NCBI RefSeq assembly: GCF_900091585.1
Contig: NZ_FMHT01000003.1
Coordinates: 496,001 to 560,000 of the forward strand
Direction: 5' to 3'
DNA length: 64,000 bases
Origin: Micromonospora nigra
GTDB taxonomy: Bacteria > Actinomycetota > Actinomycetes > Mycobacteriales > Micromonosporaceae
Shown: positions 14,557-47,509 of the stretch, piece by piece
Layout of the letters: the number at the start of each line of letters is the position of its first letter
How positions within the stretch are numbered: position 1 is the first letter of the stretch
Position numbers and translations under genes: made by a program
Notes under the pieces: generated by a model
The model's input: the letters and a program-made list of their open reading frames with translations, nothing else
What the model was told of the DNA's origin: nothing
Database searches by the model: none

Positions 14557-20010
<5,454 letters not shown>

Positions 20011-26269: not shown

Positions 26270-26282
26270 GGCGATGGCTCCT

Positions 26283-30600: not shown

Positions 30601-32184
30601 CCGGTCCGGCTCGTCCGGGCTGACGTCCAGCAGGGCGGGCGCCTGCGGGTCGGCCGCCGCCCGGGCGCTGACCAGCTCGTGCAGCCCCACCCCGGCGGGG
30701 TACGCCCGGTCGGTGGCGTTCCAGGCGGCCAGGTCGCGTCGCTCGGCGGGGCCGGTCAGGTCCAGTTCGGACAGGCGCAGGTGTGCCCGGGTGGCCAACG
30801 CCCACAGCACGGACCGGAACCGGTCGACGAACCGGTCGATGGTCGCCTGGTCGAACAGGTCGGTGTTGTAGTCGACCAGGCCACTCAGGCCGGCCGGGGA
30901 CTCGTGCACCGCCACGGTGAGGTCCAGCCGGGAGGTCTCCCGCAGGACCGACACGGGGCGGACGGCGAGACCGGCCCTCGGACCGGCGACACCGGCCTGG
31001 TTCAGGACCAGCATCACCTGGAAGAGCGGGTTACGGCTCAGGTCGCGGGGCAGTCGGACGGTCTCGACGATCCGTTCGAAGGGCAGCTCGGCGTGGGCCA
31101 GGGATGCCACACAGGTGCCCCGGACCCGGGCCAGTGCCTCGGCCAGGGTGGGGTCCCCGGCCAGGTCGGTGCGCAGCGGCAGGCTGTTGACGAGCAGGCC
31201 GACCATCTGCTGCTGCTCGGCGTCGGTGCGCAACGTCACCGGGGAGGCGACGCAGACGTCGTCGGTGCCGCCGAGGCGGGCCAGCAGCACCTGGAGGCCG
31301 GCGAGCAGGATCATGAAACGGGTGCAGCCGGTGCGGTGCGCCAGGCTGTCGAGCGCCGCGACCAGGTCGTCGGCGACGGCGAAGCCGTGGGTGCGGCCAG
31401 GGAAGGTCTGGGTGGCCGGGCGCGGTCGGTCGGTGGGCAGGTCGAGCAGGCCGGAGGAGCCGGCCAGTCGGTCGGCCCAGAAGCTGCGCAGCCGGTCGGC
31501 GGCGGCCCCGGCCAGCCGGTCGTGTTGCCACAACACGTAGTCGGGGAAGTGCACGGCCGGCGGAGCCGGCGACGTGGCGGCCCCGGTGAGGCGGCGGCGG
31601 TGGCCGTCGAGGAGTCCGGTGAGCACGATGTCGAGGGACCGTTCGTCGGCGACGATGTGGTGCAGGCTGACCACCAGCAGGTGTTCCTCGACGTCGAGCC
31701 GGCCCACCCGGACCCGCACCAGCGGCGCCCGGCCCAGGTCGAAGGGGGTCTCACTCTCCCGGCGGACGGCAGCGACGACGGCCGCCTCGCGACCGGTGCG
31801 CGGCACCGTGGTCAGGTCCTCCACCACGAGCCGGCACCGGGCAGCCGGGTCGTCGGCCGGCAGGACGACCTGCTCCACCGCCCCGTTCCGCTCCACGAAC
31901 CTGGTCCGCAGGGCGTCGTGCGCGGCGACGACCTCGTCGAGCGCGGACTGCAGGGCGGCCAGGTCCAACCGGCCGGTGATTGCGACCGCCTGGTTGAGCA
32001 CGTACGCCGGGTTGCCCGGCTGGAGCCGGTCGAGGAACCACATGCCCTCCTGCATCGGGGAGAGCGGCACCCGGGTGCCCGGTGACCGGCGCGGAATCCC
32101 GGCGGGCCGGGTCGCCGTGGCCAGTCCCCGCCGGGCCATCAGTTCCCGGATGAGGCGTTCCCGGTCGGGTCCGGGGGCGGTCAT
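27643..32184 (-). CDS. NRPS module C-A-T with terminal thioester reductase
   Basis: 1,513 residues. ATG overlaps the stop of the preceding NRPS (ATGA). Condensation domain (about 35-460) with active-site variant HHIVADE, where Gly is replaced by Glu; adenylation domain (about 490-1000); carrier domain with Ser1080 (LGGHSL); and a Lys2/NAD_binding_4-type reductase starting near 1150 with CTGATGFLGAYLL. Such domains release the chain by NAD(P)H reduction to an aldehyde, sometimes on to an alcohol, so this should be the final module. Hand-aligned specificity residues are D-A-G-D-M-G-H-V-C, which I cannot assign; the Asp at the fourth position would suit a substrate with a basic or amine group, such as a kynurenine-type residue. 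There is no thioesterase in the operon. Confidence 0.93.
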   Translation of the reverse strand: MTAPGPDRERLIRELMARRGLATATRPAGIPRRSPGTRVPLSPMQEGMWFLDRLQPGNPAYVLNQAVAITGRLDLAALQSALDEVVAAHDALRTRFVERNGAVEQVVLPADDPAARCRLVVEDLTTVPRTGREAAVVAAVRRESETPFDLGRAPLVRVRVGRLDVEEHLLVVSLHHIVADERSLDIVLTGLLDGHRRRLTGAATSPAPPAVHFPDYVLWQHDRLAGAAADRLRSFWADRLAGSSGLLDLPTDRPRPATQTFPGRTHGFAVADDLVAALDSLAHRTGCTRFMILLAGLQVLLARLGGTDDVCVASPVTLRTDAEQQQMVGLLVNSLPLRTDLAGDPTLAEALARVRGTCVASLAHAELPFERIVETVRLPRDLSRNPLFQVMLVLNQAGVAGPRAGLAVRPVSVLRETSRLDLTVAVHESPAGLSGLVDYNTDLFDQATIDRFVDRFRSVLWALATRAHLRLSELDLTGPAERRDLAAWNATDRAYPAGVGLHELVSARAAADPQAPALLDVSPDEPDRPALTYGRLDADADRLAAHLCRLGVRPDEPVGLALAAGRAAVTGLLAILKAGAGYLPLDPTHPPARLRALLTAAGTTVCLTDADLAATIAAPPDEPDDQPYAGTVLAVDTDGLPVGTAGRTVDTDGPPVDGGPAGDPPPVAPRQVHPDQLAYVIHTSGSTGTPKGVMVSHRTAVNLALAFADLHGIGPGDRLLMLPPLSFDASVGDLFPALVSGAAIVVHRQPAAITGAGLTELCRTHGLTLVDTAAPLWARWVGDLAAQPDAVDVGPLRAMMVGGEAVDLETVRRWAGLTAGRVTLHNHYGPTEATVCATTYATVDANELPGLTRLPIGRPVPNVRVHVLDADLRPVPIGLVGEVFVGGTAPARGYLGNAAETAGSFVPDPYGPPGSRLYRTGDLARHRADGTLEFLGRTDQQVKIRGHRIEIGEVEAACATLPGVRRTAVVVDHAPAGPRLVAYMVGDDTVPDGPAARTALRRRLPEHLVPACFVRVPDLPTNRHGKLDLAALPRPEETDRPAHEPPTTPTEKALADIWAELLDTGPVGRQDNFFDLGGHSLLAASVVTRIRAALGVDLPLRELFSTADLAGLAAVLDGAGPTADAGGDLLRAEARLADDLAVPPGVPAAPPRSVLCTGATGFLGAYLLADWLAASTATVHCLVRADTPAAALDRVRANLHRYGLWRPEYADRLVGVPGDLGAPRLGLTGVDFAELGERLDAIVHNGGVVNFVQPYPALRPANVGGTLEVLRLATTGRPSAVHFVSTLGVFVTPSRTGTLVREGDVPADCDGLHDGYNGSKWVADALVRAARERGLPVGVHRPARITGDAGSGVGNTDDFFSRLLKTCVQLGAVPEIDDPADLAPVDYVGAGIGHLTRTGSTADHHYYNNRTMSYAALADALASFGYPVTLVAYPRWRAALLDRPDAALARFAPLFGADTPVRTQPDFDCTGTETVLAAAGITCPAADERLLHTYLAAFVAAGFLDPPPGRAHG

Positions 32185-35100
32185 CCCTGGCCGCCCAGCA
32201 GTGCCCGCAGTTCCTCGTCGGAAAGGTCGGCCACCTCCTGCCGGAGGGCGGCGACGGCGTCGACCTGACCGGCGACCGGCTCGGCGGTGCGCAGCGCGCC
32301 GGCCATCGTCGCGATCGTCGGGGCCTCGAAGAGGACCCGGATCGGCACCTCCGTCTCCAGCGTCGCCGCGATCCGGCTCAACGCCTGCGCGCCGAGCAGC
32401 GAATGCCCGCCGAGCCGGAAGAAGTCGTCGTGCACGCCGATCCCCTCGACCCGCAGCACCTCCTGCCAGATCCCGGCGAGCACCTGCTCGAGGGGGTCGC
32501 GGGGGGCGACCCGCTCCGCCTGCGGGTCGGTCCATCGGGGAGCGGGCAGGGCGTTACGGTCGACCTTGCCGTTGTCGGTGAGGGGCAACGCGGTCAACGG
32601 CACCAGGGCCGCGGGCAGCATGTACTCGGGCAGGCGGCCGGCCAGGCCGGGGCGGACCCGGTCGGCGAGGGAGTCCGGGTCGACGCCGGGCACCGGCACG
32701 GCGTACGCCACCAGTCGGGTGTCGCCGTCCCCGCCGGCCCAGGTGCTCACCACCGCGTCCGCGACCAGGTCGTGGCCGCGCAGCAGCGCCTCGATCTCGC
32801 CCAGTTCGATCCGGAACCCACGCACCTTCACCTGGTGGTCGGCGCGGCCGAGGAACTCCAGCCGGCCGTCGGCGCGCTGCCGGGCCAGGTCACCGGTGGC
32901 ATAGAGGCGGGCACCGGGCTGGTCGGCGAACGGGTCGGGGACGAACCGGCCGGCGGTCAGGCCGGGCCGGCCGTGGTATCCCCGGACCACCCCCGACCCG
33001 CCGATGTGGATCTCGCCCACCACGCCCACCGGCACCGGCTGGTGGGACTCGTCGAGAAGATAGATGCGGGTGTTGGCGATCGGCGCGCCGAGGTCCACGG
33101 CGGCCGGGGCAGGTGACACGGGGGCGGCGGCGGACCAGACGGTGGTCTCGGTGGGCCCGTAGCAGTTCCACAGGGTCGCGCCGTCGGCCAGCAGGGCGTC
33201 GGCGAGATCCCGGGGCAGGGCCTCGCCGCCGCACAGGCGCAGCCGTAGCGCCGACGGTACGCCCCCGGAGGCCAGCAGCAGCCGCCAGGTCGCCGGGGTG
33301 GCCTGCATGGCGGTGATCCCCGCGTCGGTCAGGCGACGGCGCAGTGCCGTGCCGTCACCGACCTCGTCGGCGCCGACGACCAGCAGCGGGACGTCGAGCA
33401 GCAGCGGCACCAGCAGTTCCAGCACCGAGATGTCGAACGACAGGGTGGTGACCGCCGCGAACCGGTCGGCGGGGGTCAGGTCGAGGTCGTCGTGGAAGGA
33501 GGCGACGAGGTTGACCACGCAGCGGTGCGGGACCGCGACGCCTTTCGGCCGGCCGGTCGAACCGGAGGTGTAGATGAGGTATGCCAGCCCGTCCGGATGC
33601 ACCGGAACCGCCGGGACCGGCTCGTCCGGGCCGGAGGCACCGGGCTGGTCGTGGGCGGGCAGCGGACCGTCGTCGTCGAGGAGCAGCACCGCCGCCGAGC
33701 CGTCCAGCACCGCGCCGAGCCGCGCGACGACCGCCCGCTGGGTCAGCACGACCCGGGTGCCGGAGTCGGCGAGCATGTGGCGCAGTCGCTCCGGGGGCAG
33801 GGTGGGGTCGAGTGGCAGGTAGCCGGCCCCGGCCCGCCACACGCCGAGCACGGCCGCGACCATGTCGACCCCACGGTCCACGCAGATGCCGACCGGGGTG
33901 TCCGGGGCGACACCGGCGGCGAGCAGGCGTCGGGCGATCCGTCCGGCCCGCCGGTGCAACCCGGCCCGGTCCAGCTGCCCGTCGGGGCCGGTGACGGCAG
34001 GTGGGGCGCCGGGCTCGGCGGGGTCGGTGGGCAGCAGGTCCAGGATGGTAGCGACCGGCAACGTACCCCGGTCGGTCTGGTTCCACTCGACCACGGCCCG
34101 CCACCGCTCCACCCCGCTGAGCAACGGGATCCGCGTCAGGGGCCGGTCCGGGTCGGCGACCGCCGTGTCCAGCAGGGTGCACAGGTGCCGGGCCAACCGG
34201 TCGACCGTGGACGCGTCGAACAGGGCGGTGTCGTACTCGATCGCCAACCGCAGGGCGCCCTCGGCGGTGATCTCGCCGACCAGGGTGAGGTCGAACTTGG
34301 CGGTGCCGCTGTCGACCTCCAGCGAGGTGGTCGTGCAGCCGGCGAGCCGGAAGGCGTTGTCCGGGGTGTTCTGGAGGATGATCTGGGCCTGGAAGATCGG
34401 CGCGTGGGCCAGGCTGCGTTCCGGCTGCAGTTCCTCGACCACCCTTTCGAAGGGCACCTCGGCGTTGCCGAGCCCGACCAGCGTGACCTCCCGTACCCGC
34501 TGCACAAGTTGCCGCAACGACGGGGAGCCGGCGGACGAGACCCGCAGGGCGAGAGTGTTGACGAAGAACCCGACCAACTGCTCCAGGTCGGGGTGTTCCC
34601 GGCCGGCCACCGGGGTGCCGATCACGATGTCGTCCTGCCCGCTGTGCCGGGACAGGACAGCCTGGAAGGCGGCGAGCAGGGTCATGAACATGGTGACCCC
34701 GGTGTCCCGGTTGAACTCCTCGATGCGCCGGGTGGCCGCCGCCGGCACGGTGAAGTAGTGGCAGGCGCCCCGGTACGAGCGGCTGGTCGGGCGGGGCCGG
34801 TCGGTGGGAAGGCTGAGCAGGGCCGGGGCCCCGCGCAGGTGCGCCACCCAGTAGTCGAGCTGGCTGCGCAGGGCATCGCCGGCGAGCCGGTCCCGCTGCC
34901 AGACGGCGAAGTCGGCGTACTGGGTGGGCAGGTCGGGCAGGCGGGCGGGCGTACCGGCCGACGCGGCGGCGTACGCGGTCACCAACTCCCCGAAGATCAC
35001 CCCGAGCGACCACGCGTCGGAGACGATGTGGTGCACGCAGAACGCCACGTGGTGCCGGTCCGCGTCGGTCCGGACCACCGTCACCCGCAGCAGCGGGCCC

Positions 35101-35522
35101 CGGGCCAGGTCGAACGGTTGGCCGGACTGTTCCCAGACGAGCCGGGTGGCCTCGGCGTCGCGCCGATCCGTCGGCAGCCCGGTCAGGTCGACCTCGGTGA
35201 GGTCCACCTCGCCGGTCGGTCGGACCACCTGCACCGGTTCGCCGCCGGATTCGCTGAAGGTGGTGCGCAGCGCCCCGTGCCGGTTGACGATCGTGGTCAG
35301 CGCGGTGCGCAGCGCCGCGACGTCCAACGGCCCGTGCACCCGGTACGCGACGGGGATGTTGTAGACCGGCACGCCGCTGGTGAAGCGGTCCAGGAACCAC
35401 AACCGCTGCTGGCCGAAGGAGACCGGGTAGCTGCGGGGCGCACTGGCCCGTTCGGTGAGCAGCCTGGCCAGCAGGGCCCGCTTGCCGCCGTTGCCGGACG
35501 CGGTGGAGTCGGCGGTCGTCAT
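32181..35522 (-). CDS. NRPS module C-A-T
   Basis: 1,113 residues. ATG overlaps the upstream stop. Condensation domain (about 35-460) with HHIVSDA (usual final Gly replaced by Ala), adenylation domain (about 490-1000, signature TSGSTGRPKG) and carrier domain with Ser1041 (LGGHSL). Hand-read specificity residues D-I-L-Q-L-G-C-V-W are close to the glycine code DILQLGLIW, so glycine or a small residue is the best guess. There is no epimerase or methyltransferase domain. It lies between the DUF6875-like gene and the reductase-ending NRPS, so it is probably the penultimate module if gene order matches use. Confidence 0.92.
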   Translation of the reverse strand: MTTADSTASGNGGKRALLARLLTERASAPRSYPVSFGQQRLWFLDRFTSGVPVYNIPVAYRVHGPLDVAALRTALTTIVNRHGALRTTFSESGGEPVQVVRPTGEVDLTEVDLTGLPTDRRDAEATRLVWEQSGQPFDLARGPLLRVTVVRTDADRHHVAFCVHHIVSDAWSLGVIFGELVTAYAAASAGTPARLPDLPTQYADFAVWQRDRLAGDALRSQLDYWVAHLRGAPALLSLPTDRPRPTSRSYRGACHYFTVPAAATRRIEEFNRDTGVTMFMTLLAAFQAVLSRHSGQDDIVIGTPVAGREHPDLEQLVGFFVNTLALRVSSAGSPSLRQLVQRVREVTLVGLGNAEVPFERVVEELQPERSLAHAPIFQAQIILQNTPDNAFRLAGCTTTSLEVDSGTAKFDLTLVGEITAEGALRLAIEYDTALFDASTVDRLARHLCTLLDTAVADPDRPLTRIPLLSGVERWRAVVEWNQTDRGTLPVATILDLLPTDPAEPGAPPAVTGPDGQLDRAGLHRRAGRIARRLLAAGVAPDTPVGICVDRGVDMVAAVLGVWRAGAGYLPLDPTLPPERLRHMLADSGTRVVLTQRAVVARLGAVLDGSAAVLLLDDDGPLPAHDQPGASGPDEPVPAVPVHPDGLAYLIYTSGSTGRPKGVAVPHRCVVNLVASFHDDLDLTPADRFAAVTTLSFDISVLELLVPLLLDVPLLVVGADEVGDGTALRRRLTDAGITAMQATPATWRLLLASGGVPSALRLRLCGGEALPRDLADALLADGATLWNCYGPTETTVWSAAAPVSPAPAAVDLGAPIANTRIYLLDESHQPVPVGVVGEIHIGGSGVVRGYHGRPGLTAGRFVPDPFADQPGARLYATGDLARQRADGRLEFLGRADHQVKVRGFRIELGEIEALLRGHDLVADAVVSTWAGGDGDTRLVAYAVPVPGVDPDSLADRVRPGLAGRLPEYMLPAALVPLTALPLTDNGKVDRNALPAPRWTDPQAERVAPRDPLEQVLAGIWQEVLRVEGIGVHDDFFRLGGHSLLGAQALSRIAATLETEVPIRVLFEAPTIATMAGALRTAEPVAGQVDAVAALRQEVADLSDEELRALLGGQG

Positions 35523-36262
35523 CGGGCCCCCTGGTTCGTGGTCTGGTGCAGGATCACAACGTCGGTGGTGGGTTCGGGCACCGGCAGACCGTGCCGCTCC
35601 GCCGCCATCGCGACCTGCCGGCGCAGCGACGCCGGGCCGTTGTGCGCGAAGCGCCGCAGGTAGCCGGCGAGGGTCACCGGGTCGTCGGCGAGGAACGGCA
35701 GGTCGCTGGCGACCATGTGCCGGACCACCAGCATCGGCACCGGGCTGTGCAGCGGCCGGAACTCGGCGTTCCACAGGCCGCCCTTGGCCGGCGGGCCGTC
35801 GTGGAACTCGCCGAGCATCAGCCCCTGCTCGGTGTAGTCCGGCTTGAGCCGCGACTGCGTGCGGTCCACGATCTGCCGGGCGAGGTCGGCCGGAAGGTCG
35901 GGAAGGGTGAGCAGGATCGTCTTGAACTGGGCGGCCGGCCCGGCGAGCGGTTCCAGGTGACGGAACCAGTCCCGGTAGACGGCGAGCACCTCGTCCAGCT
36001 CGGCCTCGTCGACGGTGTCCCCCCGGTACACCGCCAGGTAGAAGGTGTCCCGGTCCAGGGAGCCCTGGGCGAACGGACAGACCGGGCCCTTGCGACCCAG
36101 GTCCGGGTGCGGTTCGCAGAGGTACTCGCGGGCCCATTCGACGACGGCCCGCAGCTGGTCCACCACCCCGGTCAGCAGCGGGTGCAACGGATCGGCGCGC
36201 AGGTCGGGCTCGGTGAAGAGGGTCTGTTCGGGGAACAGTGTCCGGTTCAGCACCGCACTCAC
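35519..36262 (-). CDS. DUF6875-like protein of NRPS clusters
   Basis: 247 residues from GTG 36262, which overlaps the monooxygenase stop as GTGA and matches the coupling pattern throughout the operon; a longer upstream frame lacks coding character. Recognisable blocks are the CPFAQGSLDRDTFYLAV region with a conserved Cys, and LMLGEFHDGPPAKGGLWN followed by SPVPMLVVRHMV. From memory these match proteins annotated DUF6875, often found beside NRPS genes and without an assigned reaction. It has no signal peptide or membrane segment. Tight coupling on both sides implies a role in making the peptide rather than in regulation or export. Confidence 0.7.
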   Translation of the reverse strand: MSAVLNRTLFPEQTLFTEPDLRADPLHPLLTGVVDQLRAVVEWAREYLCEPHPDLGRKGPVCPFAQGSLDRDTFYLAVYRGDTVDEAELDEVLAVYRDWFRHLEPLAGPAAQFKTILLTLPDLPADLARQIVDRTQSRLKPDYTEQGLMLGEFHDGPPAKGGLWNAEFRPLHSPVPMLVVRHMVASDLPFLADDPVTLAGYLRRFAHNGPASLRRQVAMAAERHGLPVPEPTTDVVILHQTTNQGAR

Positions 36263-37617
36263 CGCCTCGTCGACCGGCGACGGCCGGCGCGGAGGGTGGC
36301 GGTGGCGGCGAGGCCGGCGGCCATGACGAGCCCGGCACCGGCCGCGCGCAGGATGCGGTCCTGCCGGTCGGCCCGGGCCAGCGCGTCGGCGTACGGGGTG
36401 GTGGTGTGCGAGACCATCGCGTACAGCGGCACCCACCGGCCGGGCAGCAGCCGGGCGAGCAGCCGGTCGGCGGCGGCGGCAGCGGTGTACCCGAACCGGT
36501 GCACCCGGTCCCGCAGATCCTCGAAGTTCGCCGTGGACAGGTCGGCGAGCACGTCGGTGTGCGGCTTGCGGGCCGTCTCGTACGCGGCGAGTGCGGTGGC
36601 CCGGTCGGGATGGTCGGCCAGGCAGCCGTCGAGCACCAGGCAGTCCTCGAAGGCCGAGTTCATGCCCTGCCCGTAGAACGGGTAGACGGCGTGCGCGGCG
36701 TCGCCGATCAGCACCACCCGGTCCGCGTACCGCCAGGGGGCGGTGCGGACGGTGACCAGGTGGCCGACCGGATGGTCGGCGAGTTCCCGGACCAGGTCGG
36801 GCATCAGGCCCACCGCGTCGGGGAAGTGCCGGTGGAAGAACTCCGACACCGCCGTCGGGGTGTCCAGGGCGGTGAAGCTCACCGGTCCCTCGTGGGCCAT
36901 GAACAGCGAACAGGTCAACGAGCCGTCCCGGTTGGGGTGGGCGACCATCAGCGCCTCGTGACCGGGCCAGACGTGCAGCGCCTCCAGCCGGACCCGGGGC
37001 CGGCCGTCGGCACCGACCGGAATGGTCAGCTCCTTGTAGCCCCAGGGGAGGAACTCCTGGGCGTAGTCGGCGCGCAGGCCGTGCTGCATCTGCTGCCGGA
37101 CGGTGGAGAAGACCCCGTCCGCGCCGACGACCAGGTCCGCGGTGACCGTGGTGGGGTCACCGCCGCCGGTCGGCTCGACCCGCACCGTGGCGGTCTCCCG
37201 GTCCAGGTGCACCAGTCGGCTGCCGAAGTGGAACCGGACGCCCGGTTCGGCCTCGGCGGCGTCCACGACCAGCGAGATCAGTTCCTCGCGGAGCACCGAG
37301 TGGAGGATCTCGTGCTCGCGCACCCCGTACGGCTGGAAGCGAACCGCACCGTCCGGCGAGTGCACCACCCGGCCGCGCATCGGCACACTGCGCTTGAGCA
37401 CGTCGGTGAGGAGTCCCACCCCCTCCAGCGCCCGCATGCCCCGGGCGGAGAGTCCCAGGTTGATCGACCGGCCCCCGGGGCTGGTCAGTGCGGAGCGGGG
37501 GTCGGGGCGTCGCTCGTGGACGTCCACCTCGTAGCCCCGGCGGGCGAGATGGAGCGCGGCGAGCGAACCGGCCAGACCGGCCCCGACGACGACCACACGT
37601 TCTCTGCGCTCGGTCAC
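36259..37617 (-). CDS. Kynurenine 3-monooxygenase-like flavoprotein
   Basis: 452 residues starting at GTG 37617, which overlaps the NRPS stop (GTGA). N-terminal FAD loop VVVGAGLAGSLAAL; the SINLGLSARG, PWGYKEL and YGQGMNSAFEDC blocks are characteristic of kynurenine 3-monooxygenase; GD motif LIGDAAHAVYPF. A hydrophobic C-terminal stretch near residue 430 resembles the membrane anchor of this family. It would hydroxylate the aromatic ring of kynurenine or a related amino acid, free or carrier-bound, using NADPH and O2. No tryptophan dioxygenase, formamidase or kynureninase gene is in the window, so kynurenine must come from primary metabolism, or the true substrate is another aryl amino acid. 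Confidence 0.85.
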   Translation of the reverse strand: MTERRERVVVVGAGLAGSLAALHLARRGYEVDVHERRPDPRSALTSPGGRSINLGLSARGMRALEGVGLLTDVLKRSVPMRGRVVHSPDGAVRFQPYGVREHEILHSVLREELISLVVDAAEAEPGVRFHFGSRLVHLDRETATVRVEPTGGGDPTTVTADLVVGADGVFSTVRQQMQHGLRADYAQEFLPWGYKELTIPVGADGRPRVRLEALHVWPGHEALMVAHPNRDGSLTCSLFMAHEGPVSFTALDTPTAVSEFFHRHFPDAVGLMPDLVRELADHPVGHLVTVRTAPWRYADRVVLIGDAAHAVYPFYGQGMNSAFEDCLVLDGCLADHPDRATALAAYETARKPHTDVLADLSTANFEDLRDRVHRFGYTAAAAADRLLARLLPGRWVPLYAMVSHTTTPYADALARADRQDRILRAAGAGLVMAAGLAATATLRAGRRRSTRR

Positions 37618-40600
37618 ACGCCCTCCTCGGCGATCAGGGTGTCCAGGAGCTCGTCGACCTCGCTGTCGGAGAGATCGTCGAGCGAGGCGAGCAGATCCTG
37701 CGGGGTCGGTCCGGCGGGCCCGATCCGATCGGCTCCGCCGGGGGTCTCCCCGGTGGCGGCGACCTCGACGGCGAGTTCGGCGACGGTGGGCGCGGCGAAG
37801 AGGCTGCGCAGCGCGAGGTCGACGCCGAAGGTGGTGCGGATACGGGCGATCAGCCGGGTCGCGGTGAGCGAGTGCCCGCCGAGGGCGAAGAAGTTGTCGT
37901 GCACACCGACCTCGGTGCGGCCGAGCACGTCCCGCCAGAGCACGACGAGCTGCTCCTCGGTCGGCGTGCGGGGTGCGGCCGGGCCGCTGCCGGTGGTCTC
38001 CCGCCAGGTCGGCTCGGGCAGCGCCCGCCGGTCCAGCTTGCCGCTCGCGGTGCGGGGCAGCGCGTCGAGCAGGACCAGGGTGGCCGGCACCATGTACTCC
38101 GGCAGCCGGCGGGCCAGGGCGGCGCGGACCGCCGGCCAGACCGACGCCGGGTCGGCGGTGGGTGGCTCGGTGACCGCGTACGCGGCGATCCGGACGTCGG
38201 CTCCCGCGCCCCAGGTGGTCACGGCGGCGTCCCGGACGCCCGGCTGGTCGCGCAGCGCCGCCTCGATCTCGCCCAGTTCGATCCGGAACCCACGCACCTT
38301 CACCTGGTGGTCGGCGCGGCCGAGGTAGTCGAGTCGCCCGTCGGGAAGCCGGCGGGCCAGGTCGCCGGTGGCGTAGAGCCGGCCGCCGGGACGCGGGCCG
38401 AACGGATCGGGCCGGAACCGGGCGGCGGTGAGGCCGGGGCGACCGTGGTAGCCCCGCGCCACCCCCGTACCGCCGATGTGGATCTCCCCCACCACGCCCT
38501 CGGGAACGGGCTGGCCGGCGGGATCGAGCAGGTGGATGCGGGTGTTGGCGGTGGGGCGGCCCAGGTCGACCGGGCCGGTGTCGCCGACCGGGCCGGCCGA
38601 GGAGTAGACGGTGGTCTCCGACGGCCCGTACCCGTTGACCACCAGGGCACCGTCAGCACGCAGCGCGTCGGCCAGGTCGCGGGGCAGCGCCTCGCCGCCG
38701 CTGATCCGCAGCCGCACCCCGGCCGGTACGCCCGCCGCGGTGACCAACATCCGCCAGCTCGCCGGGGTGGCCTGGAGAACGGTGACGCCCCGGTCGACGC
38801 AGGCGGCCCGGAGCGCGGCGGCGTCCCGGGTGGTCTCCGCGTCGAGGACCTCGATCCGGGCCCCGGCCAGCAGCGGCAGCACCAGTTCGACCACGGAGAT
38901 GTCGAAGGCCGGGGTGGTGATCGCCGCGACCCGGTCGGCGGGGGTGAGCCCGAACAGCCGGTGGCAGCCGACGAGGAGGTTGACCACCGAGCGGTGGGTG
39001 ACGGCGACCCCCTTGGGCACGCCGGTGGAGCCGGAGGTGTAGAGCAGGTAGGCGAGCCCGTCCGGGTGGCCGGTGACCGGCGGCGGATCGGCCGGCAGGT
39101 CGGTCGGGTCGAGCTGGTCGACGCGGAGCACCACCGGGGTGGTCCCGGCCGCGGCGGCGGCGTCGGCGAGGCCGGCCGCCCCGGTGGCGTCGGTGAGCAG
39201 CACCGGCGGGGCCGCGTCGGCCAGCATGGTGGCGAGCCGGGCCGCTGGCAGCGTCGGGTCGAGCGGCAGGTAGCCGCCGCCGGCCCGCCAGACGGCCAGG
39301 AGCGCCGCCACCAGTTGGGTGCCCCGACCGACGCAGAGCCCGACCGGTACGTCCGGGCCGACGCCGTGGGCGCGGAGCAGGTGGGCGAGCCGGTTGACGC
39401 GGGCGGCGAGATCCCGGTGGCGCAGGGCACCGTCCGGGCCGACGACCGCGACCGCGTCCGGGTCGGCCGGTGGGTACCGGTCGAGCAGCTCACCGACGCC
39501 GGCCACGTCGGGCAGGGGCTGGGCGGTGTCGTTGCCCTGGCGCAGGATCCGCTCGCGTTCGGCCGCGTCGAGCAGGGGCAGCTCGGCGACGGGTGTGCCG
39601 GGCCGGTCGAGGGCGGCGGTGAGCAGGGTGAGGTACCGCTGCGCGAGGTGGCGGATCCGGTCGTCGTCGTAGAGGTCGGTGCGGTAGGTGATCCGCCCGC
39701 GCAGCCCGTCCGGGCGATCCTCCACGGTGAGGGTCAGGTCGAACTTGACCGTGCCGTTCTCCCAGAGGCGGGGTGCGATCCGCAGCCCGGCCGACGTGAC
39801 GTCAGGTGGGGGCTCGTCGAGGGCGAACATCACCTGCACCACCGGGGAGTGGGCGAGGCTGCGGGTGGGGGCGAGCCGGTCCACGATCCGGTCGAAGGGG
39901 ACGTCCTGCCGGGTCTGCGCGGCGGTGGTCGAGGCGCGGGCCTGTGCGAGGAGGTCCGCGAAGTCCGGTCGGTCGGCGAAGCGGGCGCGCAGGGCGAGGG
40001 TGTTGGCGAAGAAGCCGACCACGTCCCGGGTCTCCGGCCGGGTACGCCCGGCCACCGGGACCGCCACCAGCAGGTCGTCGGCTCCGGTGAGCCGGTGCAG
40101 AAGGGTCTGGAAGCCGGCCAGGAGCCGGGTGAACAGTGTGCCGTCCCGGCTGGCCCGCAGCCGTGCGGTCAGCTCGTCCGGGACGGCGAAGACCACCTCT
40201 GCCCCGGCGTCGGACTGCTCGGCCGGGCGTGGCCGGTCGGCGGGGAGGTCGAGCAGGGTGGGTGCGCCGGCCAGTTCGGCGTGCCAGAAGTCGACGTCGG
40301 CGTCGAAGGTGCCCCGGTCGGCCTCCTCCCGCTGCCAGACCGCGAAGTCCGCGTACTGCACCTCGGGGGCGGGCAGGTCGGGGCGGGTGCCGACGGTCGC
40401 CGCCGCGTACCCGGTGGCCAGTTCGCGGAAGAGAATCCCGAACGACCAGCCGTCGGCGACGCTGTGGTGCACCACGACGGTGAGCACGTGGGACCCGGTG
40501 TCGCGCCGGACGAGGCCGAACCGGGCCAGCGGACCGGTGGCCAGGTCGAAGGGCTCCCGGGCGGCGGCGTCCACCAGGTCCCGCCAGGCGTCGCCGGGGC

Positions 40601-40868
40601 CGGCGGCGACGACCGGCAGGCGGACCGGGGCGGCCGGGACGACCACCTGGGCGGGTTCCCCGTCGACGGAGGTGAAGTGGGTACGCAGGGTCTCGTGCCG
40701 GTCGACCAGCCAGCTCAGGGTGGACTCCAGTGCGGCCACGTCGAGCGGGCCGGTCAGCTCGACCGCCCAGACGATGTGGTAGGTCACCGCCCCCGGGGTC
40801 ATCTGGTCGAGCATCCACAGTCGACGTTGGGTGAACGATGACGGAAGGACGTAGGTTTCGGTGTTCAT
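37614..40868 (-). CDS. NRPS module C-A-T
   Basis: 1,084 residues. ATG 40868 overlaps the stop of the NRPS-LanB gene (ATGA). Condensation domain (about 5-440) with an intact HHSVADG active site, adenylation domain (about 460-960, TSGSTGVPKG) and carrier domain with Ser1000 (LGGHSL). It ends in an acidic DDLSDSEVDELL-type tail resembling a docking segment. Hand-read specificity residues are D-I-V-Q-I-G-G-V-Y, which I do not recognise. It has no tailoring domain. It follows the NRPS-LanB protein and is a likely second module. Confidence 0.92.
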   Translation of the reverse strand: MNTETYVLPSSFTQRRLWMLDQMTPGAVTYHIVWAVELTGPLDVAALESTLSWLVDRHETLRTHFTSVDGEPAQVVVPAAPVRLPVVAAGPGDAWRDLVDAAAREPFDLATGPLARFGLVRRDTGSHVLTVVVHHSVADGWSFGILFRELATGYAAATVGTRPDLPAPEVQYADFAVWQREEADRGTFDADVDFWHAELAGAPTLLDLPADRPRPAEQSDAGAEVVFAVPDELTARLRASRDGTLFTRLLAGFQTLLHRLTGADDLLVAVPVAGRTRPETRDVVGFFANTLALRARFADRPDFADLLAQARASTTAAQTRQDVPFDRIVDRLAPTRSLAHSPVVQVMFALDEPPPDVTSAGLRIAPRLWENGTVKFDLTLTVEDRPDGLRGRITYRTDLYDDDRIRHLAQRYLTLLTAALDRPGTPVAELPLLDAAERERILRQGNDTAQPLPDVAGVGELLDRYPPADPDAVAVVGPDGALRHRDLAARVNRLAHLLRAHGVGPDVPVGLCVGRGTQLVAALLAVWRAGGGYLPLDPTLPAARLATMLADAAPPVLLTDATGAAGLADAAAAAGTTPVVLRVDQLDPTDLPADPPPVTGHPDGLAYLLYTSGSTGVPKGVAVTHRSVVNLLVGCHRLFGLTPADRVAAITTPAFDISVVELVLPLLAGARIEVLDAETTRDAAALRAACVDRGVTVLQATPASWRMLVTAAGVPAGVRLRISGGEALPRDLADALRADGALVVNGYGPSETTVYSSAGPVGDTGPVDLGRPTANTRIHLLDPAGQPVPEGVVGEIHIGGTGVARGYHGRPGLTAARFRPDPFGPRPGGRLYATGDLARRLPDGRLDYLGRADHQVKVRGFRIELGEIEAALRDQPGVRDAAVTTWGAGADVRIAAYAVTEPPTADPASVWPAVRAALARRLPEYMVPATLVLLDALPRTASGKLDRRALPEPTWRETTGSGPAAPRTPTEEQLVVLWRDVLGRTEVGVHDNFFALGGHSLTATRLIARIRTTFGVDLALRSLFAAPTVAELAVEVAATGETPGGADRIGPAGPTPQDLLASLDDLSDSEVDELLDTLIAEEGV

Positions 40869-43800
40869 GCCCCCGCCTGGTTGCGGTGTGGAGGGTCCGG
40901 GCGCCGGTCGGCGGCCGGGTTGGCGGAGCCGGTCGACGTGGTGTCGACGACTCCGGGCGTACGGGTGTCGACGACTCCCGGGGTACGGGTGTCGACGGCG
41001 ACGAGCCGCAGCTCCGCCGTGTGGTGCCGGCCCTGCGCGTCGGTCAGCCAGGCGTGCTCCGGGCCCGGCAGCATCTCGCTGAACCGCAGCGTGGCCGCCG
41101 GGTCGTGGGCGACGGTGCGCCGGACCGCACGGGCCAGGACATCGACCGAGGCGAGGCTGGTGAGGTCGAGGTGGAACGGTTTCGCCTCCACCGGGGTCTT
41201 CACGAACAGGTGCCGGGGCAACCCGTGCTCCCGCTGCCAGTGCCGGACCCGGCGGAACCGTTCGCCCTCGTCGGGCAGGGTGGCGAAGTCCAGCCCGGCG
41301 GTGGCGAACCGCCAGCTCTCCCGGGCCAGCACCACCCGGTCGACGGTGATCCGGGGCTGGTGATCGGCCGGACGACGGATGTCGAAGCGCTGCACCAGGT
41401 GCAGCATCAGCGGTTCCCCGAGCACCTCGGCCAGCGGCAGCCGGTACCGGCCGTCCCGGCTGCTCACGGTCAGCACGCCGTCGACGGGGCCGAGGACACA
41501 GTCCCCCACCGGCAGCGACGTGGCCGGGTCGAGGCCGCCGCTGTCGTGGCCGAAGACCAGCCGGACATCGCGGTCGGTGACGAGCGCGTCGGTCAACCGG
41601 GACGACGCGCCGCCCTCCTCCCCGGTGGCGGCGAGGACGATCCGGCCGTGCGGCAGGTCGGCGGTGATCGCCGCGCGCAGTTCCTCCGGCGCGGGGTGCT
41701 GGCCGACGAACAGCGCGGCGCGCAGGGTGTTCACCCCCGGGTGCACCTCGCCGACCACCCAGTGGAAGTCGCCCCGGGCGACCGCCTCCGGCCCGTCGGC
41801 GGCGAGGAGCACGTCCGGGCTGTGCTGGTACGCGCCGACCCAGCCCGGCCGGGGTGCGGCGAACGCCGCAGCCACCTGCTGGCGCAGCTCGGCCGAGGTG
41901 GCGGTGACCCGGTGGTCGACCGCGTCGGGCAGGATCCGCGCCCAGCGGTCCTGCAACGCCCGCACGACCGGGGCGATCAGCTTCTCCGGCGGGTCGAAGA
42001 GCAGGTCGTTGGCCCACAGCCAGAAGTCGGCGAAGGGGACCGTCGGCGAGCCGGTGCGGGCCACGAGTTCGCGGTACCGCTCGGTGGCGGCCCGCCGGAA
42101 CAGGGCCGCCCCGGCGGAGGTGAACCAGCGGACGCTCTCCAGCAGCAGGCTGAGCGTCGGCCACAGGGTCGCGGTGAGGTCGGTGGAGAGGGTGACGTCG
42201 GTGCCGGATCGGCACTCCTCGTAGACGAGGGTCCGTCCGGCGTACACCTTGCCGGCCCGCCGGGTGGGTGACCGGCCGGTGAGGGCGGTGAACCGCTCCT
42301 CCAACGCCTCGATCGCCGCACCGAGCCGGTCGGCGTCCCCGGCGGCGTCGGCCACCTCGCCCCGGGTCCGGTCCAGTTCGTCGAGGGCGGCCAGCGCCGG
42401 TTCGCGTACGGCCGGGTCGGTGACGGCGACGAGCCGGGCGCGCAGCAACCGTTCCGGGTGCAGGTCTTCGTTCGGCACCTCCAGGGACCAGGAGATCCGG
42501 CGGGCGTCGCGCAGTTCCGCGAGCATCCGGTAGACCTCCGACGGGCTGTCGATCCCGCTGCCGGGGTCGGCGACCAGCTCGGCGGCGATCTCGCCGGCCG
42601 GTCGGATGCCGTCGCAGGCCCTCAGCAACCGGACGGTCGCCGGGGCGAGCGGAACCGGTTCGGTCAGCGGCATGTGCAGTTCGTCGCCGACGAGGGCGAG
42701 GAAGGGCATCCGCCGCGGCACCAGCCAGGGGCGCAGCCCTGGGTCGCGGGTGGCGAGGGCCTCGGCCGTCTCGACGATCGCCCAGTTCTCGAAGTGGACG
42801 GTCCGCTGGGCGAGGGCCGCCGGGCCGTGTCGAACGGTCAGCCCCGGTGCACCGTCCTCGATCCGGGCCCAGCCGACCGGCCCGAAGAAGCCGATGGTGT
42901 CGTTCTTGACGCAGTACCGCTGGAGGTAGGTGGCGACCAGGGCCTCGTGCTGCCGGTGCCGCGAGTCGGTGGTGCCGGGTGCGGCGGCGCGCAGCGGGTC
43001 CACCCCGGTACGCAGCGCGTGCCGGTTCTGCCAGGTCACGGCGGCCCGGAAGAGCGGGTCGGCGGCGGTGGCGCGCAGGGCGGCGGCGCGCCGCGCGCTG
43101 GCGTCGGCGTAGCTGTGCAGGTAGCCGGCGAGCGCGGCCTCCCGGGCGGTGTGGGCTTCCCGCAGGGCGGCGTCGGCCCGGACGAGTTCGCCACCGGCGA
43201 GCGTGGCGGCGCCCGGCGGCAGAGGGTCCGGTGGGCTGTCCCGGCGGACCTGCCGCACCGCCCGGTTCCACTGGGCACGTTCCCCGGGTGGGCTGTCGGT
43301 GCGGGTCCGGCGCAGCGCGTCGGCGAGGTCGCGGCGGGCCGCGGTGAGCCGCTGCTCGGCGGCGAGCACCGTGTCGGCGGCCCGGACCAGGTCCGGGTCC
43401 CCGAGGGCGGTCAGGGTCCGCAGCGGGAAGCCGGCGGCGCGCAGTCCGACCCAGCGCCACAGTGCCCAGGGTCCGTCGACCGGGCGGACCAGGTGCGACG
43501 GCGCGGCGTCGGTGGTCGGGGTGGCGGGCGACGGCGCGGCGCCGGTGGCCGAAGTGGCGGGCGACGACCGGTAGCCGGCGCGGTCGCGGCGGGTCACCCC
43601 GGTGCTCACCGCGCCGAGGGCCCGCCCGTCGAGCAGGCCGGCCAGCCGGGCGAGGGTCGGGTGTTCGTAGACGACGCTCACCGGCAGGTCGACGCCGAAA
43701 CGGTCGGCGACGACGAAGGTCAGCCGGGTGGCGAGCAGCGAGTTCCCGCCCAGCACGAAGAAGTCGTCGTCCGGGGTGGACGGGGCGGTGCCGAGCAGTT

Positions 43801-46768
43801 CGGCCCAGAGGGCGGCCAGGCGCACCTGGATCGGGTCGGTCAGGTCGGCGGCCGGCCGGGCCGCCGGCTGCTCCGGCAGCGGCAGTGCCCGCCGGTCGAC
43901 CTTGCCGTTGCCGGTCAACGGCAGGGTGGGCAGGACCAGGTGGGCGGCCGGTCGGAGGTGGACCGGGAGCCGGTCGGCCGCGTACCGGGCCAGGTCCTGC
44001 GGCGTCGGGTCCGCCGCGCCGGGCCGGAGCGTCAGGTACGCCAGCAGCCGGCGCCGCTCCCCCTGCCCGTCGACCAGGACGGCGGCGTCGGCGACGGCGG
44101 GATGGGTGCGCAGCACCGCGGCGACCTCGCCCGGCTCGACCCGGAACCCGCGGATCTTGACCTGCTCGTCGATCCGGCCGAGGAAGTCGAGGCTGCCGTC
44201 CGGCCGCCACCGGACCCGGTCCCCGGTGCGGTACATCCGGGCACCCGGGCGCGGGTCGAACGGGTCGGGGAGGAAGGCCGCAGCCGTCGCCCCGGGACGC
44301 CCGAGGTAGCCGCGCGCCACCCCGTGACCGCCGGTGTGGAGTTCGCCGGGCACCCCGACCGGCACCGGCCGGCCCGCCGGGTCGAGGACGTACACCGTGG
44401 TCCGGGGCACCGGCCGGCCGATCGGCACCGGGTCCGGTACCGTCGCCGGGTCGGTCATCGGGTGCACGCAGGTGAAGGTGGTGTTCTCGGTCGGCCCGTA
44501 CCCGTTGACCAGCACCGCCCCGGCCCGCGCCCGCAGGGCCCGGCGGACCGCCTCGGGAGCGAGCACGTCCCCGCCCGCGAGGAGTTGCCCGACCCCGGCG
44601 AGGCATTCCGGGTCGAACTCGACCAGTTGGTGGAACAGCCCGGCGGTCAGCCAGAGGACGGTGATCCGTTCCCGGCGGATCAACCGGGCCAGCTCGGCGA
44701 GGTCCGGCGCTCCGGGTGGGGCCACCACGAGCCGGGCCCCGGCCGTCAGGGCACCCCAGATCTCCAGGGTGGCCGCGTCGAAGGCCACCGGGGCGAGTTG
44801 CAGGACCGTCTCGGTGGGGCCCAGGCGCAGGTAGCCGGGCTGGTGGACCAGGCGGACCACGGCGGAGTGGGCGACCGCGACGGCCTTCGGCGTGCCGGTG
44901 GAGCCGGAGGTGAAGTTGACGTAGGCCAGCCCGGCCGGATGAGGTCGCCGCACCGCGGCGCCACCCGGCTCGGCGGGATCGGGTTGGTCCAGGCGGAACA
45001 GCCGCGTGGCACCGGGTACCTCGCCGGTGGCCAGCACCGGCGGGTCACCGGCGACGGCGAGCAGCTGCCGGATTCGCGCGGGCGGGTCGGCGGGGTCCAG
45101 CGGCAGGTACCCGGCACCGGCCTTGAGCACGGCGAGGAGGGTGACGACCAGTTCCACCGAGCGCGGCAGGGCCACCGCCACCGGCTCGTCCGGGCGGACG
45201 CCCCAGGCGACGAGACGGTGGGCGAGGGCCTCGGCCCGCCCCGCCAACTCGCGGTAGGTGAGGGTGGCACCGTCGACGCCGGCCACCGCGACCGCGTCCG
45301 GTTGCCGCCGGGCCACGGCGGCGACGAGGTCCGGCACGGTCGCGTTGACCGGGTACGCCTCGGCGGGCACCGGGTCGGCGACGGCGCGGAAGTCGGCCAG
45401 CATGGCCCGGTCGGTGGCGTCGAGCAGGGGCAGCGCGGCCACCGGCCGGTCGAGCCCGTCGGCCAGTGCGGTGAGGATCAGCTCGACGTGGCGCAGCATC
45501 GCCTCGGCACCACCCTCGCTGAGCCGGCGGCGGTCGTGGTAGAGCAGCGCCGTCAGCACCGGTTCGCCGAAGACGCACAGGGTTACCGACGGTGCCGGGT
45601 GCCGGTACACGCGGGCTCTCCGGGCGCCCCAGTCGGGCACCGTGCGACTCAACGCGGCCTGGAGGTCGCGGTGCTCGTACACGAGAAGGGTGTCGAAGAG
45701 CGGGGTGCTGGCCGGCACGCCGCTCCACTGCTGGATCCGGGACAGGGGTGCGAGCTGGTGCGGGCGTACCTCTTCGATCTGTCGGCGGACGTCGAGGAGC
45801 CAGTCCCGGACCGGCTGCTGTGGGTCGACGTCGATCCGCAGCGGCACCGTGTTGATCAGCAGGCCGAGCATCCCGTCGGCCCCGTCCACCGTGCCGTTCC
45901 GACAGGTCCGGGTGGAGCCGAAGACGACCTCGTTCCGCCCGGCGTAACGGTGCAGCAGCACCGACCAGGCCGCGGTGACCAGCGTGCTGACCGGGACGCC
46001 GACGGTCCGGGCCGCCGTGTGGAGGGCGGCGGTGGCCGCCGGGGTGAGCGACCTGGCCAGTTCGCGGACGGTGTCCACCCCCCGGGGCGAGTCGTCCGGC
46101 GCGATGGTCAGCGGCAGTGGGGTCGGCAGGGTGACGTCGGCCAGCCGGCGGGTCCAGAAGCGCCGGTCTGCGGTGAGTGGACGCTGCGCGACCCAGACCA
46201 CGTAGTCGCGGAACGGACGGCGCGGCGGCGGATCGTAGGGGCGGGCGGTCCGCAGCGCGTCGTGTTCGGCGAAGACCTCGTCGAGCAGGAGGTGCACCGA
46301 ACGGCCGTCGAGGATGGCGTGGTGCAGGGTGACGGTGAGGGTGTGCCGGTCCGGCCCGTGGGTGAGGAGGGTGACCCGGGCCAGGGGTGCGGTCGAGGAG
46401 TCGAAGCCGGCGGCGCGGTCGTCGGCGAGGAACCGGGCCAGCCGTTCGCCACAGGCGGCGGACGGCTCACCGGACCAGTCGTGGTGCGTCACCGGCAGGG
46501 CCACCGCCGGTTGGACCTCCTGCGCGGGGTCGCCGTCGGCGGGCCACACGAAGGCGGTACGCAGCACCGGATGGCGCGCGGTGGCGCGTTGCCAGGCGGT
46601 ACGCATGGCGGCCGGGTCCAGCGGTGCGGGCCAGTCGACGACCACCTGGAGGATGTCGACACCGGCCCGGGGCTGGTGTTCCCGGGTGAAGAGCATGCCG
46701 GACTGCAACGTCACCGTGTCGTACCGGCCGTCCGGATCGATGTCGGTGTCCAAGGGCGGTGCCGGCAA
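40865..46768 (-). CDS. NRPS module C-A-T fused to complete LanB-type domain
   Basis: About 1,967 residues. I chose TTG 46768 because GAAGGAG lies six bases upstream; an in-frame TTG at 46840 (GGAGG too close, Cys-rich extension) is the alternative. Condensation domain (about 20-440, HHAILDG), adenylation domain (about 460-960; residues D-A-L-W-L-G-G-T-F, valine-like), carrier domain (Ser1010, LGGNSL), a 70-residue linker, then a LanB N-terminal-type region from about 1090 to 1950 with YCVKNDTIGFFGP (about 1284-1296). That region is collinear end to end with the stand-alone LanB protein of the same operon, apart from a roughly 70-residue insert. It has no SpaB_C elimination domain. It is the first gene of the operon. 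I infer loading of valine or a similar residue and tRNA-dependent acylation in cis; the reaction is untested. Confidence 0.92.
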   Translation of the reverse strand: MPAPPLDTDIDPDGRYDTVTLQSGMLFTREHQPRAGVDILQVVVDWPAPLDPAAMRTAWQRATARHPVLRTAFVWPADGDPAQEVQPAVALPVTHHDWSGEPSAACGERLARFLADDRAAGFDSSTAPLARVTLLTHGPDRHTLTVTLHHAILDGRSVHLLLDEVFAEHDALRTARPYDPPPRRPFRDYVVWVAQRPLTADRRFWTRRLADVTLPTPLPLTIAPDDSPRGVDTVRELARSLTPAATAALHTAARTVGVPVSTLVTAAWSVLLHRYAGRNEVVFGSTRTCRNGTVDGADGMLGLLINTVPLRIDVDPQQPVRDWLLDVRRQIEEVRPHQLAPLSRIQQWSGVPASTPLFDTLLVYEHRDLQAALSRTVPDWGARRARVYRHPAPSVTLCVFGEPVLTALLYHDRRRLSEGGAEAMLRHVELILTALADGLDRPVAALPLLDATDRAMLADFRAVADPVPAEAYPVNATVPDLVAAVARRQPDAVAVAGVDGATLTYRELAGRAEALAHRLVAWGVRPDEPVAVALPRSVELVVTLLAVLKAGAGYLPLDPADPPARIRQLLAVAGDPPVLATGEVPGATRLFRLDQPDPAEPGGAAVRRPHPAGLAYVNFTSGSTGTPKAVAVAHSAVVRLVHQPGYLRLGPTETVLQLAPVAFDAATLEIWGALTAGARLVVAPPGAPDLAELARLIRRERITVLWLTAGLFHQLVEFDPECLAGVGQLLAGGDVLAPEAVRRALRARAGAVLVNGYGPTENTTFTCVHPMTDPATVPDPVPIGRPVPRTTVYVLDPAGRPVPVGVPGELHTGGHGVARGYLGRPGATAAAFLPDPFDPRPGARMYRTGDRVRWRPDGSLDFLGRIDEQVKIRGFRVEPGEVAAVLRTHPAVADAAVLVDGQGERRRLLAYLTLRPGAADPTPQDLARYAADRLPVHLRPAAHLVLPTLPLTGNGKVDRRALPLPEQPAARPAADLTDPIQVRLAALWAELLGTAPSTPDDDFFVLGGNSLLATRLTFVVADRFGVDLPVSVVYEHPTLARLAGLLDGRALGAVSTGVTRRDRAGYRSSPATSATGAAPSPATPTTDAAPSHLVRPVDGPWALWRWVGLRAAGFPLRTLTALGDPDLVRAADTVLAAEQRLTAARRDLADALRRTRTDSPPGERAQWNRAVRQVRRDSPPDPLPPGAATLAGGELVRADAALREAHTAREAALAGYLHSYADASARRAAALRATAADPLFRAAVTWQNRHALRTGVDPLRAAAPGTTDSRHRQHEALVATYLQRYCVKNDTIGFFGPVGWARIEDGAPGLTVRHGPAALAQRTVHFENWAIVETAEALATRDPGLRPWLVPRRMPFLALVGDELHMPLTEPVPLAPATVRLLRACDGIRPAGEIAAELVADPGSGIDSPSEVYRMLAELRDARRISWSLEVPNEDLHPERLLRARLVAVTDPAVREPALAALDELDRTRGEVADAAGDADRLGAAIEALEERFTALTGRSPTRRAGKVYAGRTLVYEECRSGTDVTLSTDLTATLWPTLSLLLESVRWFTSAGAALFRRAATERYRELVARTGSPTVPFADFWLWANDLLFDPPEKLIAPVVRALQDRWARILPDAVDHRVTATSAELRQQVAAAFAAPRPGWVGAYQHSPDVLLAADGPEAVARGDFHWVVGEVHPGVNTLRAALFVGQHPAPEELRAAITADLPHGRIVLAATGEEGGASSRLTDALVTDRDVRLVFGHDSGGLDPATSLPVGDCVLGPVDGVLTVSSRDGRYRLPLAEVLGEPLMLHLVQRFDIRRPADHQPRITVDRVVLARESWRFATAGLDFATLPDEGERFRRVRHWQREHGLPRHLFVKTPVEAKPFHLDLTSLASVDVLARAVRRTVAHDPAATLRFSEMLPGPEHAWLTDAQGRHHTAELRLVAVDTRTPGVVDTRTPGVVDTTSTGSANPAADRRPDPPHRNQAGA
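40941..40997 (-). repeat. 24-bp tandem repeat at 3' end of NRPS-LanB gene
   Basis: Two full copies (40941-40964 and 40965-40988) plus nine bases encode a VDTRTPGV repeat in the C-terminal tail, after the last conserved LanB block. It probably forms a linker to the next NRPS or is neutral expansion. Confidence 0.7.
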
Positions 46769-46900
46769 AATAAGCTCCTTCACGTCCGGGAACACCGGAC
46801 ACAAACACCCTGCTGAACAGGCGAAATCGGGAGACGCCAATTCCTCCGACCACCTGGCGGCAATGTGCGGAATTGCCTCGGGCCGGGAATGACTTACAAG

Positions 46901-47257: not shown

Positions 47258-47467
47258 TCAGCCCTGCGTGGCCAGCCATTCCCGCAGGCTGCGCGGGCGC
47301 AGATCGGTCCAGATCTCGTCGATGTGCGCGAGACAGTCGGCCCGTCCGCCGCTGAATCCCGTCGAGCGCCACCCGGCCGGGACCTCCGAGCCGTCCGGCC
47401 AGATCGAATACTGCTCCTCGTCGTTGACCACGACTTGGTAGCGGCGCGAATCCTCGGATTCTTCCAT
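47258..47467 (-). CDS. MbtH-like NRPS accessory protein
   Basis: 69 residues from ATG 47467, preceded by GGGGAG; an upstream in-frame start would add ten non-conserved residues. The sequence has the family hallmarks in order: [15 protein letters not shown], then VPAGW, then [14 protein letters not shown] near the end. MbtH proteins bind adenylation domains and are needed for their solubility or activity. This one sits directly upstream of the four-module NRPS operon and should serve some or all of its A domains. It has its own putative promoter and a downstream hairpin, so its level could be set independently of the operon. Confidence 0.93.
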
Positions 47468-47509
47468 GAACACTCCCCAAAGCGGTACGGCCCACAAGTT
47501 AGACCGGGA

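Follow-up and report, generated by a model that had tools for sequence, protein, structure and literature searches.

A condensation-adenylation-thiolation module fused to a putative PEARL-type amide ligase in Micromonospora nigra and related actinomycetes

What might a lantibiotic dehydratase-type (LanB) domain do at the end of a nonribosomal peptide synthetase (NRPS) module? The question is raised by a 64,000-nucleotide stretch of the Micromonospora nigra genome (contig NZ_FMHT01000003.1, positions 496,001 to 560,000; hereafter the window), in which one gene encodes a condensation-adenylation-thiolation (C-A-T) module followed by such a region. A preliminary description of this DNA had taken the fusion to a carrier to mean that the amino acid acted on is thiolation-bound and that tRNA-dependent and thiotemplate chemistry would meet in one protein. 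The answer we favor, with slightly better than even confidence, is that the fused domain would be an amide ligase of the peptide aminoacyl-tRNA ligase (PEARL) type, belonging to the SnaE family and acting in cis on the first NRPS module.

The gene forms a single frame on the minus strand (40865-46840), 1991 residues (aa) long from its 5'-most TTG, or 1967 aa from an alternative TTG at 46768. In the 1991-aa form, Pfam identified Condensation (residues 40-394), AMP-binding (508-846), AMP-binding_C (905-980) and PP-binding (1007-1070), followed by Lant_dehydr_N (PF04738) in two stretches, the best at 1260-1722, with a whole-protein E-value of 4.2e-27; the proposal that a C-A-T module and a LanB N-terminal region share one frame, with Lant_dehydr_N and without SpaB_C, is thus borne out. 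The motifs of the first condensation domain (C1; LHHAILDG) and of the T domain (LGGNS, serine intact) agree with HHxxxDG and LGGxS, which together with the C, A and T domains themselves are the features of an NRPS elongation module; the A-domain motifs are likewise intact. The LanB region had also been called complete, which holds for its glutamylation/PEARL half; the elimination half (PF14028, Lant_dehydr_C) was detected neither in the fused gene nor in the subset of window genes whose proteins were scanned by Pfam. GC content by codon position remains coding-like across the T-LanB junction and the frame contains no N, which together with recurrence of the fusion elsewhere confirms that the frame is unbroken.

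In searches with the LanB domain, 79 genomes out of 200 sampled from the family matched at E <= 1e-10 and 40 out of 298 from the order at E <= 1e-60; both counts include the source genome, and the samples overlap. Thirteen loci, from Salinispora pacifica, Micromonospora echinofusca, ten Saccharothrix and Actinophytocola gossypii, were compared, and 12 of them hold C-A-T-LanB in one frame; L052 has it split over two frames, and L045 starts at a contig end. Among 20 further regions, picked with preference for long frames, 12 encode C-A-T-LanB, 2 A-T-C-A-T-LanB and 1 A-T-LanB at a contig end, and 5 are unfused; of two long frames, L072 gave PF04738 as its sole Pfam match and L066 gave none. Four further order-level loci (L104-L107) showed A-T-LanB within the short stretch covered. 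A second C-A-T-LanB lies in the M. nigra genome itself, about 26 kb before the window (L010:4907-10429; C3:464907-470429), its LanB part being 52% identical to the window domain, and the same genome holds one ordinary LanB with PF14028, far away. Since the fusion occupies one frame in 12 of 13 and 12 of 20 loci and occurs twice in its own genome, it is no assembly accident, and an architecture first described from one gene proves to be recurrent.

The relationship of the domain to LanB comes from Pfam and from fold, TbtB and GodF being closest in the one weak structure model searched by fold, and not from direct sequence searches of the PDB, in which neither the domain nor its profile found a LanB. 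As expected of a PEARL, the PF04738-like domain stands without PF14028, and putative ATP and tRNA residues can be assigned (D577, E599-x-H601, E844-x-R846 and Y206-x-x-R209). D577, E844 and R846, which by motif and spacing match the ATP pocket of TglB (D542, E801 and R803), occur in 21 of 21 LanB-like sequences, and Y206-x-x-R209, matched by spacing to Y205 and R208 of the tRNA helix of BhaB, is invariant in 15 sequences. In the position of the LanB motif R-x-TPFG the domain has KNDTIGFFGP, aligning, as had been suggested, with RATPFG of the genome's own true LanB. The putative ATP/tRNA residues and KNDTIGFFGP mark the domain as PEARL-like and not as a dehydratase. Glutamylation of a hydroxyl in the chain on the carrier, leading to dehydration as in LanB and TbtB, would be in keeping with the Pfam name, with the fold match and with R35, Y206 and R209, which the genome's true LanB also has; given D577, the missing R-x-TPFG and PF14028 (the latter for the proteins scanned) and a module 1 code that we take to be Val-like, we regard it as extremely improbable and have rejected it on motif, absent PF14028 and the Val-like module. 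Equally hard to credit is a non-catalytic remnant serving as a docking or scaffold domain, as none of twelve putative key positions varies among 15 sequences, of which the other 14 share 47-87% identity with the first. The Lys of KNDT had been considered as a replaced tRNA-binding Arg (R208 of BhaB) and was rejected in a wider alignment, where an intact Y-x-x-R ends four residues earlier. This Lys is usual (21 of 21 in the alignment set, 6 of 7 in a Kitasatospora array of LanB-like genes) and Y-x-x-R is intact, and the argument for tRNA-free chemistry was therefore dropped.

SnaE, the CHARACTERISED relative, is a stand-alone "lantibiotic dehydratase" in the threopeptin (sna) NRPS-polyketide synthase (PKS) cluster of Stackebrandtia nassauensis, and heterologous expression showed that it is needed for Thr addition at a free carboxylate, which arises where the C domain of SnaA, with the signature EHHxxHDG, joins two Arg via urea (PMC11212132). 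The same work mentions LanBs fused to thiolation domains, puts the NRPS/PKS clusters carrying LanB-like genes at about two thousand and calls SnaE the likely founding member of this class (PMC11212132). We infer that our locus L079 is the sna cluster: it encodes A-T-C-A-T, with EHHLVHDG starting at residue 744 from its ATG, then ketosynthase-acyltransferase-thiolation (KS-AT-T), then a LanB that shares 31.5% identity with the window domain across 819 columns. The earlier statement that no characterised example was known is too strong, SnaE having been characterised in vivo as a stand-alone relative, but it stands for C-A-T-LanB itself: the literature searched reports no characterised one, and no title or abstract among the matches listed describes one. 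Works centred on LanBs in NRPS clusters are, among those matches, PMC11212132 and its preprint PMC10769383; literature on the product of these clusters was not found.

Two loci, L069 and L070, link SnaE with the window gene. Both encode A-T-C-A-T-LanB with the ureido signature in the C domain (EHHFVHDG and EHHFIHDG), in effect SnaA fused to SnaE, and their C domains group with that of SnaA (support 0.999). In a LanB tree of 74 sequences plus outgroup they (L070 as L025) fall inside the fused-domain clade with support 0.997; the inner nodes placing the ureido type have supports of 0.947 and 0.82, and the sister, L026, is a stand-alone LanB encoded in L082 close to a KS-AT-T protein and a C-T protein. 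Because the urea of L069 and L070 should already use the carrier amine, the LanB more plausibly acts on the free carboxylate. From architecture, residues and kinship, all read from the sequence, we infer substrate, direction and use of tRNA in the window protein: homology with SnaE together with the linking form suggests that the carboxylate of an N-terminal cap is extended with aminoacyl-tRNA. Module 1 would load a Val-like residue onto its T domain (T1), and C1 would cap the amine of that residue with a group leaving a carboxylate free. The PEARL domain would phosphorylate this carboxylate with ATP and couple it to the amine of an aminoacyl-tRNA, the tRNA then being hydrolysed off. The chain would thus grow at its "wrong" end while the thioester end passes to module 2, with final release by the reductase domain of module 4. 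A side-chain carboxylate of an Asp or Glu loaded by module 1 was also considered and rejected, as the code DALWLGGTFK, on our assumed label, speaks against it.

The substrate originally proposed would instead have the T1 aminoacyl thioester replace aminoacyl-tRNA, ATP activating a free acid that is attacked by the T1-bound amine, so that T1 is acylated directly. The direct T-LanB fusion, in which the T and LanB profile matches lie 19-60 residues apart for 26 of the 30 fused sequences, points this way, as do Streptomyces plasmids (L077 and L078) with LanB, A, pyridoxal phosphate (PLP) enzyme, carrier and LanB in succession but no C among these five genes. C1 would then be redundant although its HHxxxDG is intact, and the linking form fits poorly, since the ureido C of L069 and L070 should already have consumed that amine; no change at Y206 or R209 occurs among 15 aligned sequences, and sna has no A domain that loads the Thr added by SnaE (PMC11212132). 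That a carrier-bound amino acid takes the place of tRNA is less likely, and unlikely in this specific form: the amine should already be used in the ureido type, Y206-x-x-R209 and the ATP residues are kept, and the step from a carrier to a thiolation-bound substrate is not supported. The union of tRNA-dependent and thiotemplate chemistry in one protein fares better, a LanB-superfamily domain being fused to an NRPS module and tRNA being probably involved. On the two plasmids (L077:14752-22352, L078:14752-22313) two PEARL-like enzymes may carry out a C-free assembly, but there is also an NRPS gene some 13 kb upstream of this group.

How the chain begins in the window is a separate matter. A ureido C domain was ruled out there by motif, EHHxxHDG occurring in L069, L070 and L079 and LHHAILDG in the window, and all 19 C1 domains of C-A-T-LanB in the C-domain tree form another clade (support 0.946; 0.975 including one from L082). 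With ureido C domains and C1 domains in separate clades, chains begin in two dissimilar ways although the ligase that goes with them is of the same kind. The best PDB matches of C1 (McyB, PvdL, BacC, surfactin synthetase and TycB) are not the same as those found for module 2 and for the ureido C (Txo, 5u89, TycC and PCP-C). The C domains matching C1 presumably follow D-residues, which gives only a hint that C1 is of the DCL type; a D-donor for C1 was not seen here. In the 13 frames compared, 8 to about 31 residues separate the possible start codon (starts not being proven) from the C core, and no donor domain was seen before C1 within the frame. Tentatively, C1 may found a new class of initiating C domains (own clade, HHxx(L/I)DGRS) that would reverse or cap the chain and thereby leave a carboxylate free, without urea signature or upstream module, the PEARL then adding a tRNA-borne residue to the carrier-bound chain in cis. 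A urea made by the PEARL itself would suit the finding that C-A-T-LanB lacks exactly the A-T didomain of the ureido type and that no donor module was seen just upstream in the short stretches covered: the amine of T1-bound Val would take up CO2, the carbamate would be phosphorylated and aminoacyl-tRNA would attack, the ureido partner thus coming from tRNA. That scheme leaves C1 without a task, and a carbamate substrate is not described for PEARLs in the parts of the literature consulted; we consider it quite improbable.

The PEARL could also act once the chain has been released, or on a different molecule, in which case the fusion would serve just to fix dosage or location. The SnaE work does not decide between Thr addition on the assembly line and addition to the free product (PMC11212132), and stand-alone relatives, including the window's second copy and its kin, nest within the fused-domain clade; this copy is apparently a domain become separate, and a LanB match is absent from L094 and L095, continuations of two homologous clusters. 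Retention of a one-frame fusion behind the same T domain in 28 loci (12 + 12 C-A-T-LanB, 2 of the ureido type and 2 in the source genome) speaks against action elsewhere, which we hold to be unlikely.

A number of observations weigh against a tRNA-dependent ligase acting in cis. The window C1 lacks the ureido signature and groups apart from ureido C domains, and the free carboxylate is therefore assumed, not seen; a widely shared upstream donor gene was not seen either, in upstream stretches that are short (0.7-6.8 kb) and with annotation that did not extend to upstream frames common to near relatives alone (L058-L060). For SnaE, use of aminoacyl-tRNA was inferred and not shown in vitro (PMC11212132), and no tRNA gene, which the proposed chemistry would not need, was found in the window. 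Residues were mapped to TglB and BhaB by motif and spacing, those two proteins not being aligned, and the distance from D to E is not constant (22 here and in TglB, 17 in BhaB, 12 in P0005). Y206, R209, R35 and H601 are also present in the genome's true LanB and therefore speak for tRNA use generally, not for PEARL; at R846, that LanB has R in one alignment and L in the other. The Kitasatospora array keeps Y206 in 4 of 7, E599 in 5 of 7, F780 in 5 of 7 and K213 in 6 of 7, and TglB Glu564 is non-essential according to the portion of PMC11117183 consulted. Finally, both structure models are of low confidence (mean predicted local distance difference test scores of 57.2 and 56.8), the first alone having been fold-searched.

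The minus-strand genes run in the order MbtH, C-A-T-LanB, C-A-T, flavin adenine dinucleotide (FAD) monooxygenase, DUF6875, C-A-T, C-A-T-reductase, major facilitator superfamily (MFS) transporter, O-methyltransferase and stand-alone LanB-like gene (Table 1; the A-domain codes of modules 1-4 were derived by alignment). The ATG at 40868, overlapping the stop codon of the fused gene, is the real start of module 2 within a read-through open reading frame (37614-44606, 2330 aa). Every fused locus compared has a C-A-T gene directly following the fusion, and in 22 other loci, some being two stretches of one cluster, matches were found to the monooxygenase in 13, to the DUF6875 protein, whose gene is kept between monooxygenase and module 3, in 14, and to MbtH in 9. 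In the C domains of modules 3 and 4, HHIVSDA and HHIVADE replace HHxxxDG. Near the stand-alone LanB gene are a single-chain acyl-CoA carboxylase (biotin carboxylase, carrier and carboxyltransferase; 14557-20121, minus strand) and an acyl-CoA oxidase (20750-22771, plus strand), and the plus-strand frames 47857-48645 and 48730-49482 have coding-like composition and no Pfam match. The second fusion of the genome stands at the head of a further NRPS line of the same orientation, apparently continuing into window frame 80-5746 (ketosynthase, ketoreductase and thioesterase).

Table 1. Features of the fused gene and its neighbors in the window
Feature	Coordinates	Strand	Evidence
C-A-T-PEARL-like fused gene	40865..46768	-	Pfam and frame; 5'-most TTG 46840
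C1 condensation domain, LHHAILDG, not ureido signature EHHxxHDG	45659..46723	-	Pfam, motif, tree
A domain (AMP-binding and C-terminal part), code DALWLGGTFK, taken to be Val-like	43901..45319	-	Pfam, alignment
T domain, intact LGGNS	43631..43822	-	Pfam, motif
PEARL-like (SnaE-type, PF04738) domain	40979..43495	-	Pfam, fold, tree
KNDTIGFFGP motif replacing R-x-TPFG	42878..42907	-	alignment
MbtH-like protein, just upstream of fused gene	47258..47497	-	PF03621
Module 2, C-A-T, 1084 aa, code DIVQIGGVYK	37614..40868	-	Pfam, alignment
FAD-dependent monooxygenase (FAD_binding_3)	36259..37617	-	Pfam
DUF6875 protein, 305-aa frame, true start probably further in	35519..36436	-	Pfam
Module 3, C-A-T, C domain from about residue 303 of frame, code DILQLGCVWK, taken to be Gly-like	32181..36338	-	Pfam, alignment
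Module 4, C-A-T-R, reductase-type release domain (NAD_binding_4), code DAGDMGHVCK	27643..32535	-	Pfam, alignment
MFS transporter	26283..27650	-	Pfam
O-methyltransferase	25214..26515	-	Pfam
Second, stand-alone PEARL-like protein, 770 aa	22902..25214	-	Pfam, tree

Genes for ArgC-like dehydrogenase and ArgB-like kinase lie beside the ureido fusion of L070, and a transketolase-like gene in L069, a setting also known where unusual amino acids are made on carrier proteins. Adjacent pairs of PEARL-like genes stand between A-T and A-T-C-T frames in L080 and L081 and are among many family-scan matches, including several genomes of the window's genus. The array mentioned above, on a plasmid of Kitasatospora sp. 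NBC_00039 (L126:5737-23492), consists of seven consecutive LanB-like genes, accompanied by TldD/PmbA-type genes and an oxidoreductase; of the 5 LanB-like genes scanned, 3 had no Pfam match.

In the fused form the ligase is attached to a defined carrier, on which its substrate can be trapped. The series formed by SnaA plus SnaE, A-T-Curea-A-T-PEARL and C-A-T-PEARL offers a comparison for the carboxylate used when no urea forms, and bears on whether tRNA delivers residues directly to NRPS lines. Transferases of the PacB and livipeptin types, through which tRNA-derived residues reach thiotemplate products, acylate the amine end. In the portions of PMC12945691 and PMC10548850 consulted, the likeness to the window protein is that a tRNA-derived residue enters a thiotemplate product, by PacB in pacidamycin and by an L/F (leucyl/phenylalanyl) transferase with a C-minus NRPS in livipeptin, such transferases also occurring fused to NRPS; both belong to other families (GNAT-fold and L/F transferases). 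LanB and split LanB enzymes (NisB, MibB, TbtB and GodF) share the fold of the glutamylation domain, whereas the window domain has KNDTIGFFGP for R-x-TPFG, D577 and no PF14028. The PEARLs TglB, BhaB and AmmB resemble it in ATP-pocket and tRNA-helix residues, by motif and spacing, but extend ribosomal scaffold peptides, as far as the consulted parts of PMC11962472 and PMC11117183 describe them. SnaE shares PF04738 without PF14028, KNDTIGFFGP, GE-x-H, ELR and work with an NRPS; it differs in being stand-alone, with a ureido C domain in its partner NRPS, whereas the window domain is fused to a C-A-T module without one.
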